A stretch of DNA of 64,000 bases from Schumannella luteola (GTDB lineage Bacteria; Actinomycetota; Actinomycetes; Actinomycetales; Microbacteriaceae). Every line of letters begins with the position of its first letter. Within the stretch, counting starts at the first letter, position 1. Shown in pieces: positions 126-12,315 of the stretch. Both the position numbers and the translations under genes were made by a program. The notes under the pieces were generated by a model, which ran no database searches, was not told the origin of the DNA, and saw nothing but the letters and a program-made list of their open reading frames with translations. The stretch spans positions 2,914,001 through 2,978,000 of the forward strand of contig NZ_JACBZY010000001.1 of assembly GCF_013408685.1 (NCBI RefSeq), written 5' to 3'.

Positions 126-3028
<2,903 letters not shown>

Positions 3029-3090
3029 CCCGAGAGTCTACGAACGACCACCGACATCCGCCGGACACGCCCGTCGTGGGAGGGCCGTCA

Positions 3091-4512
3091 TCAGCTCTCG
3101 CGGAGGAAGCGGCGGGGCTTGCCCTCGCCCAGGTCGATCGGCCGGGCGACGGCCTCGAGCTCGACCGGCTGCCCGAGCAGGGCGCGGATGCGACGGGTCG
3201 CTCGGTCGGCGTCGCCGCCGGCGATGCGCGCGCGCACCGTGCCGTCGGCGCGCTGCACGAGCGACCACGCCAGGGCGCCCGCGTCCTGCAGGTACTGGGT
3301 CAGGTCGACGGTGTTGATCGCGTGCCCGCCGGCCGTGACGAACTCGACGTGCTCGCGGCCCTCGAGGTCGGCGATCGCCGGGCGGCCGTCGCGTTCGACG
3401 AGGCGGCCGTGGTCGCCCGTGCGGTAGCGGGCGAGCGGCAGCAGCGGGTTGCTGCCGGCGGTGACCACGAGCTCGCCGCGCGCGTCGCCGGCGGGGCGGC
3501 CCGCCGCATCCACCGTCTCGACCAGCACGCGGGTGTCGAGCACCCGGAAGGGGCCGTCGTCGGCGCGCCAGGCGATCGGGCGCGTCTCGTGCAGTCCGTA
3601 GAGGTCGAGCACCGGCACGGCGAAGCGGCTCTCGAGCGCCGCCCGCAGCGCGGGGGTGAGATGCAGGGCTCCGCTGACGATCGCCAGGGGATGCAGCACG
3701 GCGGCCGTCTCGGGCTCGAGCAGCGTCGCCAGGCTGCTCGGGTTGCCGCTGATCAGCTGCGGGTCGTGGCCACGCAGGAACACGACCCGGTCGGCGGTCG
3801 GCCAGTCGCGCGGGTCGAGGTTGAGCCGGGCCATCAGGGTCTGACCGTCGGCGTCACCGCCGCTGCCGCCCGACCCGCCGCCGCGCTCGGCGGTGAACCC
3901 CGGCACGGGAGAGACGTAGGTGAAGGCCTGCCGCTGATGCACCACGAGCGCGAGGGCGAGTCGACGTGGATCCGGCTGCCAGTCGACGCCGAGTCCCGCG
4001 AGCAGACGGCGCACGAGCCAGAAGGTGCGCGCCACATCCTCGACGTCGTCGGGCAGCCGCAGCGCGGCCCCCGTCGATCCCGAGCTCGAACCCTGCACGA
4101 GACGCGAGAGGTCGGCGTCGCGCGGCACGAAGCCGCCGATGTCGGCCGCGAGCTCGGCGCGCGAGATGAGCGGGAAGTCGTCGAGAGCGTGCAGGCGCCC
4201 GCGCAGGCCGCGATAGGCGGGCAGCTCGCGCACGACCTCGAGATGCGCCGGCAGCCAGTTATCGACCGGCAGCTCGGCGCGCGCCCGCTCGACCGCGGCG
4301 GCGTCGAGCCGGTGCCCGACGCGGTGCCGCCAGAGCGGGGCGGCCGGATGCGCGAGCACGGCCTCCAGGCGGGTGCGGGCCGTGGCGGTCAGGCCCGGCC
4401 AGCGCTCGGCGTCGCTCAGGGCGACCGTCGACCCCGGCACGTAGTGCGGCAGCAGCACATCGGCGGGTCCGGACTCCGAGTCCGCGCTCGGGCCCCGGCC
4501 CGCGTCACTCAT
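3091..4512 (-). CDS. PaaK/CapK-type adenylate-forming enzyme (ANL superfamily), last gene of the MoxR-vWA operon
   Basis: 473 residues. Seen in the sequence: a glycine/serine phosphate-binding loop GSSSGSTG (residues 141-148), a later LYGLHETRP segment corresponding to the adenine-binding A5 motif, YRTGDHGRL (A7), and a C-terminal GKPRRF that could hold the catalytic lysine of the mobile subdomain. This order is that of the phenylacetate-CoA ligase/CapK/coenzyme F390 synthetase branch (COG1541), which activates a carboxylate as acyl-adenylate. A glycine-rich insert lies near the middle. The substrate is unknown. Start: ATG at 4512 (MSDAGRG) overlaps the preceding gene by 8 bases, whereas the open frame further upstream is arginine-rich antisense-like sequence. 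Co-occurrence with a MoxR ATPase and a vWA protein is unusual for this family; a role in modifying or activating a partner is inference only. Confidence 0.75.
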
Positions 4513-5233
4513 GCGAGTACCGCGCCGCCGCCTCGGCCGCGCGCTTCTCGGCCAGCGCGGCCTGGATGCGGCGCCGGTGCTCCTCGTCGGCGACGAGCTC
4601 GCGCAGCGCGGCATCGCGGGCGATCGTGTCGCGGCGCTCCCAGCGCGCCCGGGCGGTCGTGGCGTCCTCGCCCGCCGGGAGCCGCCCCGCCCAGAGCAGG
4701 AAAAGCCGCGCGGCCTCCTCGCGGCTCTCGTCATCCGCGAGCCAGCGACGCGGCTCGACGAGCGGCGCGAGCCGGAACGCGAGCGCGCCGATCGACGAGT
4801 GCGCCCAGCGCGCATCGAGCGGCGGCGCGAACGGCGTGAGCAGCTCGTCCGAGGCCCAGAGCCAGAGCGCGAGGGCCGCGCCCTGCCGCGCCGCGGGGTC
4901 GTGCTGCGCCTCGTCGGCGATCGCGAGAGCGCTCGCGAGCACGTGGTCGGGAGCGCCGGCGAGCACGTCGCCGGTCAGCGCGCGCAGCGAGATCGACTCG
5001 GCCAGGAAGGCCTGCGGAGCCGAGGAGATCCGCGTCTGCACGACCTCGAGCGACGGACCGGGAGCCAGCGCATCCCAGACCCGCGTCTCGTCGAGGCGCA
5101 GGGCGAACCAGCGGTCGAGCGGCCGAGGACCGCCGAGCGGTCCCGCGGCGGGAGCGCCGGCGGCGGCCGACGTCGCACCGGTCGATGCTGCGCCGGGAGT
5201 GCCGTCGTCGCGGGATGCGCTGGTGTCAGGCAC
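4505..5233 (-). CDS. Unknown helical protein, fourth gene of the MoxR-vWA operon
   Basis: 242 residues starting at a GTG (5233) that overlaps the stop of the metallopeptidase/vWA gene by 8 bases. I do not recognise the family. The first ~35 residues are Ala/Gly/Pro/Ser-rich and probably disordered. The rest looks helical, with leucine/alanine-rich stretches such as ALALWLWASDELL, and a charged C-terminal helix (EEHRRRIQAALAEKRAAEAA) that could form a coiled coil. No signal peptide or membrane segment is apparent, so it is probably cytoplasmic. Position inside the tightly overlapping operon suggests a dedicated partner or adaptor of the vWA protein or of the ligase downstream; this is inference. 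Confidence 0.7.
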   Translation of the reverse strand: MPDTSASRDDGTPGAASTGATSAAAGAPAAGPLGGPRPLDRWFALRLDETRVWDALAPGPSLEVVQTRISSAPQAFLAESISLRALTGDVLAGAPDHVLASALAIADEAQHDPAARQGAALALWLWASDELLTPFAPPLDARWAHSSIGALAFRLAPLVEPRRWLADDESREEAARLFLLWAGRLPAGEDATTARARWERRDTIARDAALRELVADEEHRRRIQAALAEKRAAEAAARYSHE

Positions 5234-7214
5234 GGGCCCGTCCTCTCCTGCTCGGCTCCCCCGGGCGCGCGATCAGCTCGGCCAGACGGCGACAGGCCGC
5301 CGGCGCATCCTCGTGACGCTGCACGTGCTCGACCGTGTAGCCGTTCGCGGCGGCGAGTTCGGGAACCCGGCCGAGCCAGCCGATCACGATGAGCGTCGCG
5401 GTGTCGATCCGCTGCCGCACCTCGCCGGCCACGTGCTCGAGGCCGGGCTGGCCCTGGCCGAAGAGCGACTCGAGTCCGCCGTCCGACAGCACGACGAGGT
5501 GACGACGGCGATCGCGAGCGGGGCGCACCGTGCGGTACCGCTCCGCGAGCACGTCGAGGGGGAAGGTCGTGCCGCCGCCGAAGTAGTGCAGCAGCGCACC
5601 GATCGCCTCCGAGCGATTGCGCGTCGGCCGGGCGAGTCCGGCGACCTGACCGGGACCGGAGAAGGAGGTGACCTGCACGCGGCCGCCGCCGGCGAGCACC
5701 GACTCGATGAGGATCGCGCCCGCGAGCAGCGCCGGCGAATCGGCGGCAGGGCTCGGCATCGATCCCGAGGAGTCGACCCAGAGATCGAGGTCGATGCTCT
5801 CCTGACGCGTCGGCGGATCGTCCTCCAGCCAGGTGCGACGCCGGGTCGTGACCCCGGGCACGATGCGCGGCGAAGCCGCGAGCGTCGCCCGCCAGTCGAC
5901 TGCGGTCAGCTCGTCGTCGACATCCCACAGCTCGGTCGGCCCGGGGATCTGCTCCCCCGTCGAGATCGGATGCGCCGGCTCGCGGATCGGCCTCACCCAG
6001 CGTCGTGCGCCGTCGAGATACCAGGCGCGCAGCACCGCGTCGGCGATCGCCGGGTCGTAGAGCTCGAGCGTCTCGGCGAGACCGTAGCCCTGGCTTTCCG
6101 AGCCGGTCGAGGCCGGGTCCTCGGCGTTCGAGATGGCCCGCCCGCTCTCGTCGAGCGCCGGATGCCGCGGCTCCTCACGCAGGCGGTCGTCGCGCAGCAC
6201 CTCGCCGAGCTCGGCCTCCGTCGGCGGCGCGGCGTCCACCTCTCCGCCGCAGCCGCGCGCGGCGCCGGGATCCGTCCCCCGCTCGTCGCCGCGGGAGGAC
6301 CGACCCCGTCTCCCGCTCGCGTCGTCAGCAGCATCCTGCTCGAGCAGGTACGGCGCGAGCAGCATCCCCGCCCGCAGGGCTCCGCGGATCGGGTCGTCGC
6401 CGAAAGTGCGGACGGTGCTCGCGAGCAGCCGTGCGTCCGCTTCCGGATGCGTGCGGGTCAGTGCGAGCAGGTCCGCGCGGGCGCGCTCGGCTGCGTCGCT
6501 CGCCGCATCCAGCTTCGCCTGCTGCTCGCGGAAGCGTTCGGCGACCACGGTCGAGCGACGTCGCTGCCCGAGCGCCGTTCCCAGCGGCTCCGGGACGACG
6601 GGTGCCGCCGGCGGATTCCCCCGGGCGAGTGCGCGGTCGGGCAGATCCCACAGCAGTTCGTAGGCGCGGAAGATCACCCACCAGAACCGGTCGACGGGTC
6701 CGTCCGCGAGCCGGGAGTACATCCGCACCATCCCGGTGCCGTCATCATCAGCGGCGGCGCGTTCGGCGCCCGCCACGCGCTGCAGCTCGTGCACCCGCAC
6801 GTTGATCAGCAGGTCCTCCCAGTGGTTCGCCAGATCGGCGGACCGCTCGCGCAGCCGTACCGGCGCGTCGTAGGAGCTCGCGACGAGCGCGCGCGCCATC
6901 TGCTGAGTGATCTTGAGCCCCGCGATGCGGGTGCTCGGCGCGAGCACGTGGTGCCCGATCTCGTGAGCGAAGATCGTCTCCCACTCGGCGTCGACCCCGA
7001 CCGCACGGGCGAAGACCGGGTCGACCGTCACCTGCGGCGGGAAGCCGAACCACGCGAAGCTCGGGCGCCCTGCGGCGGGATGCGCCTGCGCGGGATGCAG
7101 GTTCACGCCCCACAGCCGCTGCGCCCCAGACCAGGCGGGCGCCAGCTCGGGCGGGAGCGGTCCCGGCCCGCCGCCCTTCGCGCCGGGCCGCGCGCGCCGC
7201 ACCGAGCCGCTCAT
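5226..7214 (-). CDS. HExxH metallopeptidase-like plus von Willebrand factor A domain protein
   Basis: 662 residues. N-terminal part: IFAHEIGHHV puts a zinc-metallopeptidase HExxH motif at H84-E85...H88, followed by conserved-looking WEDLLIN about 50 residues later that could give a third ligand. The middle (~residues 250-400) is charged and of low complexity. C-terminal part: a vWA domain with a complete MIDAS, DSSGS at 481-485, GGGTTF at about 547-552 and SDGG at 577-580. The layout resembles predicted metallopeptidase/vWA proteins of the DUF2201/COG3864 type that sit beside MoxR ATPases, but I cannot confirm membership. Start: ATG at 7214 overlaps the previous stop as ATGA; the frame upstream has no coding character. 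No signal peptide. Probably the substrate- or partner-binding client of the MoxR ATPase encoded two genes earlier. Confidence 0.85.
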   Translation of the reverse strand: MSGSVRRARPGAKGGGPGPLPPELAPAWSGAQRLWGVNLHPAQAHPAAGRPSFAWFGFPPQVTVDPVFARAVGVDAEWETIFAHEIGHHVLAPSTRIAGLKITQQMARALVASSYDAPVRLRERSADLANHWEDLLINVRVHELQRVAGAERAAADDDGTGMVRMYSRLADGPVDRFWWVIFRAYELLWDLPDRALARGNPPAAPVVPEPLGTALGQRRRSTVVAERFREQQAKLDAASDAAERARADLLALTRTHPEADARLLASTVRTFGDDPIRGALRAGMLLAPYLLEQDAADDASGRRGRSSRGDERGTDPGAARGCGGEVDAAPPTEAELGEVLRDDRLREEPRHPALDESGRAISNAEDPASTGSESQGYGLAETLELYDPAIADAVLRAWYLDGARRWVRPIREPAHPISTGEQIPGPTELWDVDDELTAVDWRATLAASPRIVPGVTTRRRTWLEDDPPTRQESIDLDLWVDSSGSMPSPAADSPALLAGAILIESVLAGGGRVQVTSFSGPGQVAGLARPTRNRSEAIGALLHYFGGGTTFPLDVLAERYRTVRPARDRRRHLVVLSDGGLESLFGQGQPGLEHVAGEVRQRIDTATLIVIGWLGRVPELAAANGYTVEHVQRHEDAPAACRRLAELIARPGEPSRRGRARA

Positions 7215-7888
7215 CCGCGCCTCCCGACGCTGACCAGGTAGCTGTCGGTCGAGATCTCGGCCACGAGACGGGCGCGGTCGGGTGAGGCCTGCGTCAGCGG
7301 CTCGGCGGCCGGGGTGATGCGGCAGCCCACCGCATCCAGCTCGACGTGCCACCACTGCTCGCCGGTCGCGACCGCCAGCAGGGTCCCCTCGGCGACGACG
7401 AGGTCGCTCGGCGGCAGCGTCCAGACGCCGCCCAGACCGCGGAATCCGCCCACGAGAGCGAGCTCGGATCCGGCGCCGGGCCAGACGAGCGGATCATCGC
7501 CGGCCGCCAGCAGCTCGGTCACCTGCTGAGCCTCGAGGCCGAGCGTCGCCCCCGCGACCTCGCGCGGGAGCGCGGCGGCCGCATCCCGCGAAGCGCGACG
7601 GAACGCGGGGATGCCGCTGCGCCAGGCCGCGACCGTGCCGATCGCCCGCAGCGCGACCGGCTCGGCCTGCGCGGCGGCCGAATCGGCGGCGGCCGCGCCC
7701 CCACCACTCGGCTCGCCGCCGATCGCCCGCAGCGCGGCGAGGCCCGCCGCGGCCGACGCGGCATAGCGCGCCGGGTCACCGCCCCAGCCGCTCACCCGCT
7801 CGACGGTCGCCGTCAGGACATCCGGCAGGCCTGCCGCCACCGGCGGCGGCAGCACCGCGTTCACCGCCATCCCCGCGCGCCGCATCAT
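7211..7888 (-). CDS. Unknown protein, second gene of the MoxR-vWA operon
   Basis: 225 residues starting MMRRAGMAVN; the ATG at 7888 overlaps the MoxR stop codon (ATGATG contains the TGA). I do not recognise it. The N-terminal half is alanine-rich and likely helical with a low-complexity GGGAAAADSAAAQ stretch; the C-terminal half has beta-like segments (WTLPPSDLVVAEGTLLAVAT, then WWHVELDAVGCRITPA). No transmembrane segment, signal peptide or catalytic motif stands out. Both ends overlap neighbouring genes by four bases, so it is translated in step with the MoxR ATPase and the metallopeptidase/vWA protein and probably acts with them. It could be a small regulatory or adaptor subunit; that is inference. 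Confidence 0.72.
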   Translation of the reverse strand: MMRRAGMAVNAVLPPPVAAGLPDVLTATVERVSGWGGDPARYAASAAAGLAALRAIGGEPSGGGAAAADSAAAQAEPVALRAIGTVAAWRSGIPAFRRASRDAAAALPREVAGATLGLEAQQVTELLAAGDDPLVWPGAGSELALVGGFRGLGGVWTLPPSDLVVAEGTLLAVATGEQWWHVELDAVGCRITPAAEPLTQASPDRARLVAEISTDSYLVSVGRRG

Positions 7889-9453
7889 CGGCCGGTCGAC
7901 TCCAGCCAGCGCAGGTAGTTCGTGTAGCGCTGGTGCAGGTACTTCAAGGCGAGCAGCTCGTCGTAGTGGCGCCCGTAGAGCTTGCGGGTCGCGGCGATCG
8001 CGCCGATCGCCGCCTCGACCGCCGTGATCCGGCGGGAGGTCTCGAGCGCGTCGAGCCCCTCGAGGCCGCCGGACGCCTGCGCCAGCAAAGCGCCGACGGG
8101 GTCGTCGCGGTCGAGACCGAGCGAACGGAACTGCTCGCCCGACTGCCGCCACAGGTCGCGCAGCCAGGCCACCGCATCCGTCGCCAGCTCGCGATCGAGC
8201 TCTCCCTCGAAGCGCGGATGCGTCGGGTTCGGCAGCAGCTTGCCGCGCAGCACGAAGGGCAGAACCGCGGCGACGTCGTCGAGCGTCACCGCGCCGACGC
8301 CCCGGAACCAGGCCATCGCCTTCGCGTAGAGGATGAGGGTCTGCAAGGCTCGCACCGAGATGCTGTTGACGGTCTGCGCGCCGAGATCGACCTCGAGGTC
8401 GGCGCCGCCGTTGCTCTCGATCGCCTCGGAGACGCTCGCGCCGCCCGTCGCGACCGTGTCCTTCGTGCGGTACTCGAAGGCGCGCCCGCCGTGCTGCACG
8501 AACTCGAAGTGGCTCGTGAAGAACTCCAGCCGACGCCGCACCTCGGCGGGCAGCGGCACCGCGCGGACCTCGGCCGCCATCCGCGTGCGCCGGTCGGCGT
8601 CGAAGCGCAGCTCGACCGGCACATGCTCCTCGGGGCGCTCGCCGGCCTCGACCCGCGCCACCAGCTCACCGAAGAAGCGGCTGTTGAAGCCGAGCGCCGC
8701 GACCGTCACGTCCATGCGATCGCGCAGCGCCTGGATGACCGGGAAGGTGCCGCCGCCGGCGTCGTCGTTCGCGGTGAAGTACCAGGCGTCGACGCCCGAC
8801 TCCCCCGCGGTGCGCAGCTGCTGGTCGTAGCTCTCGACGTAGCCCTCGGCCACCATGGTGAGCAGCGCCGACTGCGTCTTCGTCGGGATGCGGTTGTATT
8901 CGTCGACGATCTTGACCGGCCGGGCGAGCCAGCCGCGCCAGGCGACGCGCACCGCATCCAGGCTGTCGGCCTCGACGAGATCGCGCGGCAGCGGGGCGCC
9001 GACCAGGTCGCTCACGGTCAGCTGCGGCTGCCCCTGCACGACCGAGGTGCGCACCCGTGTCGGCTCGTCGCCGGCGAGCACGCCCATCAGCACGGCGAGC
9101 GTCGTCTTGCCGCGTCCCGGGCCGCCGATCAGCAGACAGCGGCCGCCGACCGCGAAGGTCAGCAGCGGCAGCAGCACGTTCGACGAGTAGGACTGGTCGG
9201 TGGCCAGCTCGAGGCGGGCGCCGGCGTCGCCGAGCTCGAAGCTGAGCGGTGCGTCCCGCGAGAACTCGACATCGTAGAAGGGCGAGATCACGGCGCGGTT
9301 GACGAGCCAGAAGTAGGCCTGCCGCAGCCGCTCGTCGAGCGGCGGATCGACCGGAGCCGCCGTGGCGAAGAGGTCGTCGGCGTTCAGCTCGGCGCCGGCG
9401 TCGGCGCCGCTGCGGGTGGGCGAAGACGAGATGTGGCTCCACCGATCGCTCAT
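7885..9453 (-). CDS. MoxR-type AAA+ ATPase
   Basis: 522 residues. Walker A GPGRGKTT lies at 111-118 and Walker B IVDEYNR at 182-188; the latter is the variant DE-x-NR form typical of MoxR ATPases. A sensor-1 segment YFTAND is at 225-230. The C-terminal ~200 residues are a helical lid with ISVRALQTLILYAKAMAW. MoxR ATPases act as chaperones with a vWA partner to assemble, activate or insert cofactors into other proteins; here the vWA partner is two genes downstream. The first gene of a five-gene operon whose every junction overlaps. About 100 residues precede the ATPase core, longer than minimal MoxR proteins. No membrane segment. The client is unknown. Confidence 0.9.
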   Translation of the reverse strand: MSDRWSHISSSPTRSGADAGAELNADDLFATAAPVDPPLDERLRQAYFWLVNRAVISPFYDVEFSRDAPLSFELGDAGARLELATDQSYSSNVLLPLLTFAVGGRCLLIGGPGRGKTTLAVLMGVLAGDEPTRVRTSVVQGQPQLTVSDLVGAPLPRDLVEADSLDAVRVAWRGWLARPVKIVDEYNRIPTKTQSALLTMVAEGYVESYDQQLRTAGESGVDAWYFTANDDAGGGTFPVIQALRDRMDVTVAALGFNSRFFGELVARVEAGERPEEHVPVELRFDADRRTRMAAEVRAVPLPAEVRRRLEFFTSHFEFVQHGGRAFEYRTKDTVATGGASVSEAIESNGGADLEVDLGAQTVNSISVRALQTLILYAKAMAWFRGVGAVTLDDVAAVLPFVLRGKLLPNPTHPRFEGELDRELATDAVAWLRDLWRQSGEQFRSLGLDRDDPVGALLAQASGGLEGLDALETSRRITAVEAAIGAIAATRKLYGRHYDELLALKYLHQRYTNYLRWLESTGR

Positions 9454-9510
9454 GGCGTCACTCTATTGCGAGCGGCTGTCGGGAACCGGGCGACCGCCCG
9501 GGAACGCGGC

Positions 9511-9541
9511 AGCGGCCGCCGACTCGGAGTCGACGGCCGCT
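9511..9541 (-). terminator. Hairpin after the first membrane-protein paralogue
   Basis: Thirteen-base arms (9511-9523 and 9529-9541, one wobble mismatch) with a 5-base loop lie about 70 bases beyond the stop at 9614. There is no clear U tract, as is usual for terminators in high-G+C actinobacteria. It would separate the membrane-protein pair from the MoxR operon that starts at 9453. Confidence 0.5.
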
Positions 9542-9613
9542 GTGCGGACGGTGTGGTGCGGTGCTGCGTGCCGGCCGGGCCGGCTCCGGCGGTCCGGGCA
9601 GCGCGAGCCGCGA

Positions 9614-10801
9614 TCACTGGTAGCTGACGGTCACCTTGTCGCCCGACACCTTGATCGTGCCGAAGAGGTAGAAGGTGTCGGTGTCGGTCTTCGGCGTGTA
9701 GTCGCTGCTCGAGCTGTAGCGCTGCTGGTAGGTCGCCGTCGCCTTGCCGCCGTCGCCGGTGAAGCGCAGCGTGCTGCCGTTCTGGATCTTGATGGTCGGG
9801 TAGCTGTCGACCTTCCAGGTCAGGCCCTGGTAGTCGCCGTAGGCGTAGGTGTAGAAGGGGCATCCCGACGGACGGGCCTCGGTGCTCGCGGCGCACTTGT
9901 CGAGGTTCGCCGCGATCTGCTTCTCGACCTCCTTCTGCAGCGCCGCGGTGGGCTGGATGTCGATGTCGGCGCTGCCGTCGGAGCCGTAGGCGCCGACCAC
10001 GATCTTCGCGTTCTCGGCCTCGAGCCACTTGTTCGAATCCGGGGTGCCGACGTCGTAGACGCCGGGGTAGGCGAGGATGCTGAGGTAGCCGCCCGACTTG
10101 CGCGCCACGTCGACCTCGACGCCGTTGACCGACACCGAGTCGGCGCCGCTCGCGCTGACGCCGATCGGGCGCGCGATCGACTTGTCGACGACCCACTTGT
10201 CGAAGAACACCGCCTGCTTGCCGGCGCGGGCGAGCTGTAGGCTGACCGACTGCTTGCGTCCGTCGACGGTGAAGGTGACGCGGGTGTAGCCGCCGGCGCC
10301 GACGTTGCCGACCTGCACGTCGCTGATGCGGTTCTCGGCCTTCGCGAGCACGTCCTTGCTGTCGAGCAGGGTCGTGTCGTCGCGGCTGGTGCTCTCGGGC
10401 TCGACCATCTTCGTGGCCTTCGCGAGGTCGCCCGAGGCGATCGCGTTCATGTAGTCGCGGGCGACCGTCTGCGGCGAGAAGAAGGTCGAGCTGACGACGT
10501 TGAGTCCGACGGCGCCGACGATCACGGCGCCGAGCACGATGCCGCCGATGACGATGCCGCGGGCGAGTCCCGACATGCCGGGGTTCGCGTTCGGGTAGCC
10601 GGGGTGGCGCGGGGCGGCGGGCTTGGCCGGCTTGCCGGGGGCGCCGGCGTAGGCCTGCTGCTGGGGCTGCTGCGGGGCGCCGTAGGGCGTCGCGCCCGGC
10701 TGGGAGGCGGTGGGCTGACCACCCTGCGGCTGCTGCTGCGACCCGTAGCCGAAGCCGCCCTGGGGCTGCTGGGGGGTGTTCGGATCGTAAGGCGTCGACA
10801 T
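9614..10801 (-). CDS. Single-pass membrane protein with extracytoplasmic domain (paralogue 1)
   Basis: 395 residues. Residues 1-75 are a Gln/Pro/Gly-rich cytoplasmic tail; a membrane helix runs about 82-104 (RGIVIGGIVLGAVIVGAVGL); the remainder is presumably outside. The external part begins with a short helical SPQTVARDYMNAIASGD segment typical of small exported NTF2-like/DUF4878-type modules, and its C-terminal part carries a pair of cysteines in CAASTEARPSGCPF that could form a disulphide. No function is recognised. The ATG at 10801 was chosen because the paralogue next door starts with the same MSTPxDPN. It is the second of two tandem genes and is probably exported by the Sec route with an uncleaved anchor. 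Confidence 0.85.
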   Translation of the reverse strand: MSTPYDPNTPQQPQGGFGYGSQQQPQGGQPTASQPGATPYGAPQQPQQQAYAGAPGKPAKPAAPRHPGYPNANPGMSGLARGIVIGGIVLGAVIVGAVGLNVVSSTFFSPQTVARDYMNAIASGDLAKATKMVEPESTSRDDTTLLDSKDVLAKAENRISDVQVGNVGAGGYTRVTFTVDGRKQSVSLQLARAGKQAVFFDKWVVDKSIARPIGVSASGADSVSVNGVEVDVARKSGGYLSILAYPGVYDVGTPDSNKWLEAENAKIVVGAYGSDGSADIDIQPTAALQKEVEKQIAANLDKCAASTEARPSGCPFYTYAYGDYQGLTWKVDSYPTIKIQNGSTLRFTGDGGKATATYQQRYSSSSDYTPKTDTDTFYLFGTIKVSGDKVTVSYQ

Positions 10802-10980
10802 GGGGTGCGCTCCGTGCTCGTGAGGTGTCGTGATCGTCGTCAGGTGTCGTCGGTCCGGTGAAGGACTCCGCATCACCCTACGGGGAACCCGAGGGCGATT
10901 CGACGTCGTGTCGGATCCATCCTCCCCCGCGGCGGCGCCGGCGCGCGATGGAGACGACTCCCCATCCGCGGTCCCGCCGG

Positions 10981-12177
10981 TCACGAGAAGGTGACCCGCA
11001 CCGTGTCGCCCGAGATCCGCACGTCGCCGTAGAGCGAGAACGTGTCAGTGTCGACCCGCGTGGTGTACGCCGAGCTCGCGCCAGAGCGCTGCTGATACGT
11101 CGCCGTGGCCGATCCGCTCTCACCCGAGAAGCGGATGCCGCGGTCCGATTGGAGAGACAGGTCGGGGTAGCTGTCGATCTTCCAGCCGAGCCCCTGCACG
11201 TCGCCATAAGCGGACACGCGGAACGGGCAGCCTCTCGGGCGGGCGTCCGTGCTGGCGGCGCAGTCGTCGAGGTGGGCCCTGACCTGCGACTCGACCTCCT
11301 TCTCGAGCGCGGCGGTCGGCGTGACCGCGAGGTCGGCCGACTGATACGACCGGCCGCTGCGGCCGATTGTGAGCTTGGCCTTGTCGGCCACGACCCACTT
11401 GCTGGTGTCGGGAATCGTCAGGTTGTAGACACCCGGGTAGGCGATCAGACGGATGCTGCCGTAGGTCCTCGCGGGCAGGTCGACATCGACGCCGTTCACC
11501 GAGACCGTGTTCGAGCTCCGGGCGCTGATCGCGATCGTGCCGGCGAGCGAATCGGCGATGACCCACTTGTCGAAGAACACGGCCTGCGTGCCCTCGCGCT
11601 CGAGGCGCAGGGTGGCGCTGGTGGTACGGCCATCGAGCGTGTAGCTGACGGTCGCGTAGCCGCCGCTCGACACTCGCGAGACCCTGACGTCGCTGATGCG
11701 GTTCTCGGCCGACTTCAGCACGTCGCTCGTCACGAGCGTGGCTCCGGGATCGCCCTTGCCGTCGGGCTCGATCATCTCGTCGGCCCTCTCGAGATCGCCC
11801 GAGGCGATCGCATTCAGGTATTCGCGCGCGACGGCCTGCGGCGAGAAGGCGACCTCGCGGATCGTGTTCACGGCGACGACGCCGACGACGAGCGCGGCGA
11901 TCACCATTCCGCCGATCACGATGCCGCGAGCGAGCCCGGTCGTGCCCGGCGTCGAGTTCGGGTAGCCGGGATGACGTCCGTCGGCGCCGGAGACCGACAT
12001 CGATGAGAGGGATCGTGCTCCGCCGTAGGGGGCGCCGTACGGGGTTCCGGCGCCGGCGCTCTGCGGCGCGACCGGCTGTCGTCGCGGTGCGGCCTGCGGC
12101 GCGCCGTATCCGAACCCGCCGCTCGCGTCCGTGCTCGGCGGCGGCGAGGAGGAGTTCGGATCGTTCGGGGTGGACAT
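10981..12177 (-). CDS. Single-pass membrane protein with extracytoplasmic domain (paralogue 2)
   Basis: 398 residues, colinear with the neighbouring gene at 9614-10801: low-complexity N-terminal tail with GFGYG, shared HPGYPN segment, membrane helix at about 84-105 (RGIVIGGMVIAALVVGVVAV), SPQAVAREYLNAIASGD, and the cysteine pair CAASTDARPRGCPF near the C-terminus. The two differ at many positions, so the duplication is not recent. A 179-base gap separates them, which may carry a separate promoter. I do not recognise the function; an envelope role is inferred from topology. Start ATG 12177 gives the MSTPNDPN N-terminus that matches its paralogue. Confidence 0.85.
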   Translation of the reverse strand: MSTPNDPNSSSPPPSTDASGGFGYGAPQAAPRRQPVAPQSAGAGTPYGAPYGGARSLSSMSVSGADGRHPGYPNSTPGTTGLARGIVIGGMVIAALVVGVVAVNTIREVAFSPQAVAREYLNAIASGDLERADEMIEPDGKGDPGATLVTSDVLKSAENRISDVRVSRVSSGGYATVSYTLDGRTTSATLRLEREGTQAVFFDKWVIADSLAGTIAISARSSNTVSVNGVDVDLPARTYGSIRLIAYPGVYNLTIPDTSKWVVADKAKLTIGRSGRSYQSADLAVTPTAALEKEVESQVRAHLDDCAASTDARPRGCPFRVSAYGDVQGLGWKIDSYPDLSLQSDRGIRFSGESGSATATYQQRSGASSAYTTRVDTDTFSLYGDVRISGDTVRVTFS

Positions 12178-12315
12178 GCGCTCTGCTCCGTGCGGTCGTC
12201 GTGGAGTCGGGAAACCCCGCCCGGGAAGTCGAGGGCACTCCGACGCCGGGCGGCGATGGATCCATGGTGACCCTGCGAGGGCACGGGCGCGATGGACACC
12301 GCTCCCCATCGGCGC

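Follow-up and report, generated by a model that had tools for sequence, protein, structure and literature searches.

MoxR-vWA machines are widespread, and most of them are without a known client. The closest described systems are NorQ-NorD, CbbQ-CbbO and RavA-ViaA, in which a MoxR-type AAA+ ATPase is encoded together with a vWA protein that has an intact metal ion-dependent adhesion site (MIDAS). In the VMAP/MoxR-vWA ternary conflict systems, MoxR and vWA are joined by at least one further conserved protein, and metallopeptidase domains are rare (Kaur et al. 2020, PMC7159879). Here we describe a five-gene cassette from Schumannella luteola, located at positions 3091 to 9453 of a stretch of 64,000 nucleotides (termed the window) from contig NZ_JACBZY010000001.1. 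The cassette resembles NorQ-NorD, CbbQ-CbbO and RavA-ViaA in its MoxR-vWA pair with intact MIDAS, but in addition has a HExGHH zincin domain in the vWA protein (g3), the proteins g2, g4 and g5 and a linkage to pnuC-nadR. With the ternary conflict systems it shares MoxR, vWA and further conserved proteins, but no VMAP, iSTAND or FtsH component was recognised in it and it has no variable effectors; the terms 'adenylat', 'acyl' and 'CapK' do not occur in the text of PMC7159879. The genes of the cassette are:

g1 (moxR), 7885..9453, minus strand: MoxR-type AAA+ ATPase, 522 amino acids
g2, 7211..7888, minus strand: uncharacterised protein, 225 amino acids
g3, 5226..7214, minus strand: protein with a zincin-like metallopeptidase domain and a C-terminal vWA domain, 662 amino acids
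g4, 4505..5233, minus strand: uncharacterised all-helical protein, 242 amino acids
g5, 3091..4512, minus strand: PaaK-like adenylate-forming (ANL) enzyme, 473 amino acids

The original prediction, made from the letters of the window, had proposed a five-gene operon with junction overlaps of 4, 4, 8 and 8 bases, and the translations confirmed this arrangement. Retrieval of GTDB contigs by similarity to MoxR alone yielded 40 loci, and 38 of these have the complete set in unchanged order, showing that the five-gene grouping is not due to chance. The two incomplete loci are L029, which lies at a contig end, and L050 from the Lysobacterales. Exactly the same overlaps as in the window were found in 15 loci (with automatic choice of the start codons). 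The five-gene order was found again in three phyla, with further holders in another class of the Actinomycetota (G449, L073) and in a member of the Desulfobacterales (L051). Thus, MoxR, the zincin-vWA protein, the two uncharacterised proteins and the PaaK-like enzyme are co-inherited as one unit in distant genera. Separation of the ligase or of the uncharacterised genes from MoxR and vWA is not the rule overall, but it does occur in part of the Lysobacterales: only MoxR, g2 and g3 are found in L050 and L105, without g4 and g5 alongside, and L107 and L110 have g3, a radical SAM gene and g4, with or without g5, and no adjoining MoxR.

The cassette is rare. A search with the g3 protein matched only one of the 297 genomes drawn from the class, and the MoxR protein was found in 11 of 300 Microbacteriaceae genomes, representing 5 of 85 genera. 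In the MoxR tree, Microbacterium and the Mycobacteriaceae are each split into several lineages, which are mixed with other genera, and this suggests that a chromosomal cassette has been transferred horizontally. A distant MoxR and vWA pair is present in another actinobacterial family (f60, L074-L076), where the HExxH motif is degraded and the third gene is a different one encoding about 280-300 amino acids; only MoxR and g3 are common to these loci and the cassette. One scaffold from Mycolicibacterium houstonense (L035) showed a displaced g3 and duplicated gene fragments, which is probably a scaffold misassembly, and was excluded for that reason.

Clustering of the flanking genes revealed two recurrent neighbours directly upstream of moxR, which were identified as PnuC and NadR. 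The pnuC-nadR pair is located directly 5´ of moxR in 23 of the 40 loci, and the genera with this arrangement include Microbacterium, Cryobacterium, Frigoribacterium, Agromyces and Glaciihabitans as well as Demequina, Phycicoccus, Propionicimonas and two Mycobacterium. In three Lysobacterales (L108, L109, L111) the pair lies directly downstream of g5, and in the Desulfobacterales genome g5 is split between two contigs, with pnuC-nadR coming after its C-terminal half on the second of them (L084). Upstream and downstream cases taken together, the adjacency extends over three phyla and two arrangements. The PnuC proteins of the linked loci score above the cut-off of TIGR01528 (71-87 bits versus 42), and NadR matches TIGR01526 over its full length with a score under the cut-off. 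In the literature searched, which mostly excluded subscription papers, we found no description of the five-gene set or of a MoxR-vWA-ligase partner of PnuC-NadR.

The cassette and the salvage genes also co-occur in genomes in which they are not linked. The genome of the window encodes NadR at G000:C1:2600954-2602084 with PnuC (identified by tblastn only) just upstream, about 320 kb away from the cassette at approximately 2.917-2.923 Mb. Another genus of the Microbacteriaceae likewise has both without linkage, and for unlinked loci NadR was found in all eight Mycolicibacterium-type cassette genomes tested and in G449. Among the 300 Microbacteriaceae genomes, full-length NadR is present in 11 of the 11 with the cassette and in two of the 289 others; the corresponding Fisher value of 2e-18 ignores kinship, and a fair count comes to five genera, to which is added the contrast within Schumannella, where three species have both cassette and nadR and two have neither. 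Every tested Actinomycetota genome with the cassette also has NadR. This does not hold throughout the Gammaproteobacteria; for the Lysobacterales NadR was detected in three of ten genomes with g3 and in none of 20 controls.

The individual proteins carry the following motifs:

9103..9126, minus strand: Walker A motif GGPGRGKT of MoxR, invariant in 40 orthologues
6948..6965, minus strand: zinc-binding motif HEIGHH of g3, corresponding to the invariant HExGHH
5757..5774, minus strand: vWA MIDAS core DSSGSM of g3, corresponding to the invariant DxSGSM
4508..4534, minus strand: tail EAAARYSHE of g4, whose first and last Glu are the same in all 45 loci
4069..4089, minus strand: A3-type motif SSSGSTG of g5
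3118..3120, minus strand: conserved C-terminal Lys (A10-type, in GKPRR) of g5

MoxR matches the Pfam families AAA_3 (30.7 bits) and AAA_lid_2 (31.6 bits), both above the cut-off, and Walker B, sensor 1 and the arginine positions are retained along with Walker A in the 40 relatives. In g3, AHExGHH, DxSGSM and related positions are invariant in 21 orthologues. The MIDAS (DxSxS...T...D) is complete, with D481, S483, S485 and D578 invariant and T549 conserved in at least 90%, and a further Asp downstream of HExGHH, D134, is also invariant. A weak match to Peptidase_M48 was obtained for 7 of the 21 g3 members (best E 2.4e-4); a peptidase activity of g3 is putative.

The g5 protein resembles the PaaK/phenylacetate-CoA ligase branch of the ANL enzymes in its AMP-binding fold as seen by profile (best E 2.3e-16 against the PaaK structures of the 2y4o, 2y27 and 9s3l branch) and in the motifs A3, A5, A8 and A10-type with the C-terminal catalytic Lys, which are retained in all g5 orthologues; 20 of 21 orthologues match the Pfam family AMP-binding (best E 2.4e-12). 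However, g5 scores far under the curated cut-offs of every named ligase family, including NF045666 of NCBIfam for the DVU_1553-type ligase (1.6e-13) and TIGR02155 for PaaK itself (27.5 bits with a cut-off of 646), and by this measure it is not a PaaK sensu stricto. The g5 protein would be expected to act as a ligase.

No family match was obtained for g2 and g4 in Pfam, NCBIfam or PADLOC. The N-terminal half of g2 is helical and the C-terminal half consists of beta structure with the motif GGFxGxGG. An AlphaFold2 model of a g2 orthologue (pLDDT 93.7) had no Foldseek match at E<0.001 and a VIA Z of 4.2 at most, which leaves a known fold still possible; its beta half could be aligned weakly with propeller blades (Z of about 4). 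The model of a g4 orthologue (pLDDT 92.8) is all-helical with a long C-terminal helix and also gave no Foldseek match at E<0.001, again with a known fold still possible.

At the C-terminus of g4, the nine final residues follow the pattern E-[AS]-x-x-[RK]-x-x-x-E in all 45 loci, for instance ESADKWTRE in Lysobacterales, EASAKVMRE in Desulfobacterales and EAAAKATRE in G449. The last Glu is encoded by GAG or, in seven loci, by GAA. We considered whether this residue is a by-product of the 8-base overlap, but it is retained in at least 15 loci without the overlap motif, and this explanation was ruled out. By analogy, the terminal Glu could fit two roles: it could be an acidic ligand of the g3 MIDAS, or it could be an attachment site as in LysW.

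The cassette is real and conserved, and it seems to represent a so far undescribed variant of MoxR-vWA systems with a genomic link to the salvage of nicotinamide riboside (NR) and nicotinamide adenine dinucleotide (NAD). We propose that MoxR, g2 and g3 form a dedicated remodelling machine, which, with g4 and g5 as its partners, would serve the NR/NAD metabolism of PnuC-NadR, and we assign this proposal a probability of roughly 0.5. In such a pathway PnuC would import NR, NadR would be both the NR kinase and the adenylyltransferase for nicotinamide mononucleotide, and the cassette would serve both. MoxR would assemble an ATP-driven ring, and the MIDAS of the g3 vWA domain would be offered to an acidic ligand, the invariant C-terminal Glu of g4. 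The g4 protein would thus deliver g5, or a complex containing g5, to the MoxR ring, and the zincin domain of g3 might trim or release the product. NorD, the vWA partner of a MoxR protein, requires its own MIDAS as well as acidic residues on the client (PMC9976466). We favour the role as MIDAS ligand for the g4 Glu, given the co-inheritance of g3 with g4 and the acidic nature of MIDAS ligands. By adjacency and by unlinked co-occurrence, one type of MoxR-vWA machine can be tied here to a defined metabolic step, NR salvage, and an orphan five-gene cassette with two uncharacterised proteins becomes directly testable, with the C-terminal Glu of g4 as the first candidate residue.

Several observations weigh against this proposal. 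L050 and L105, which are limited to MoxR, g2 and g3, show that g4 is not the only possible ligand of the vWA domain, unless it is encoded elsewhere in these genomes. The prediction that g4 and g5 always occur together with NadR in a genome failed, since the Lysobacterales G1299 and G1326 have g4 and g5 but no NadR. Conversely, NadR is more widespread than the cassette in the Mycobacteriaceae, where 21 of 150 other genomes have it but lack the cassette. In addition, while the pnuC-nadR pair is the one known from PnuC-NadR salvage, the actinobacterial NadR differs in the P-loop of its kinase domain, which reads GAESTG[ST]TT and not GxESxGK[ST]. A Ser or Thr replaces the Walker A Lys, regardless of whether the cassette is present (L077, L078, L082, L083, L016-L053), and NR kinase activity is therefore unproven in these organisms; the Lys is retained in Lysobacterales and Desulfobacterales.

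The second role of the g4 Glu would make g4 a carrier, comparable to LysW/ArgW or the pearlin carrier peptides, an explanation we regard as rather unlikely. Here, g5 would adenylate a carboxylate of the C-terminal Glu or load this Glu with a substrate, the g4 tail would be the site where a pyridine nucleotide or another small molecule is made or altered, and the zincin domain of g3 would release it. LysW works via the gamma-carboxylate of its own C-terminal Glu (PMC10433800, PMC9303977). Like LysW/ArgW, g4 ends in an invariant Glu, whether encoded by GAA or GAG and even where the overlap does not force it, and shares its operon with an ATP-dependent activating enzyme, here the adenylating g5, and a metallopeptidase; a radical SAM gene that separates g3 from g4 in three loci of the Lysobacterales (L107:6581-7507; L108:9144-10109; L110:6496-7440) would also suit a carrier. 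However, LysW is small and binds zinc, whereas g4 has 200-300 amino acids, is all-helical and lacks both conserved Cys residues for zinc binding and the EDWGE motif. Furthermore, the activating enzyme is an ANL enzyme and not an ATP-grasp ligase such as LysX, and the radical SAM gene is missing from most cassette loci. We know of no ANL enzyme that activates a protein C-terminus. If g4 were a carrier, this would be a new way of handling a pyridine-nucleotide product on a protein. An extended version, a new ribosomal-carrier pathway, seems improbable to us: the ANL enzyme would activate the g4 Glu, a cofactor derived from a pyridine nucleotide would be built or attached with PnuC-NadR (and with the radical SAM protein in some lineages), and MoxR and the zincin-vWA protein would load or release it.

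It is similarly improbable that MoxR-vWA is a maturation chaperone for a single metalloenzyme or multi-subunit enzyme encoded elsewhere, with pnuC-nadR just supplying extra NAD. NorQD, CbbQO and RavA-ViaA act in this manner (PMC9976466), and L050 and L105 indicate that MoxR, g2 and g3 are able to stand alone, but the flanks of the 40 loci show no recurring client gene of this kind; what recurs instead is pnuC-nadR, g4 and g5. Least probable of all is a VMAP-type MoxR-vWA conflict (defence) system with g5 or g3 as effector, a stress/conflict role raised in the original prediction: the coupling of MoxR and vWA with further genes and the patchy, taxonomically mixed distribution would agree with it, but no PADLOC model matched (ATPase matches were at chance level, with E 0.03 or worse), no copy was found in plasmid, phage or viral-contig collections, the flanks are housekeeping genes (murB, xthA, def, thiC, uvrA), all cassette genes are under purifying selection with ratios of non-synonymous to synonymous substitution (dN/dS) of 0.03-0.53, and a constant set of five genes takes the place of a variable effector.

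In the window, the gene next after g5 is uvrA (3028-125), which was rejected as a member of the cassette because it adjoins it in Schumannella only. A scan of positions 2950-9700 revealed no sigma-70-like promoter and no intrinsic terminator, although such a scan is weak for high-GC actinobacteria. Upstream of moxR, on the minus strand at 9614-12309, two similar tandem proteins, which are presumably membrane-anchored, are encoded with a 4-base overlap; they match no Pfam family over the cut-off and have relatives near moxR in other Schumannella loci. Comparison of the window with the Schumannella locus L014 gave a synonymous divergence of 0.36-0.56 for the cassette and of 0.11 for the adjacent uvrA, a gap that may reflect a separate history or a stronger codon constraint on uvrA.

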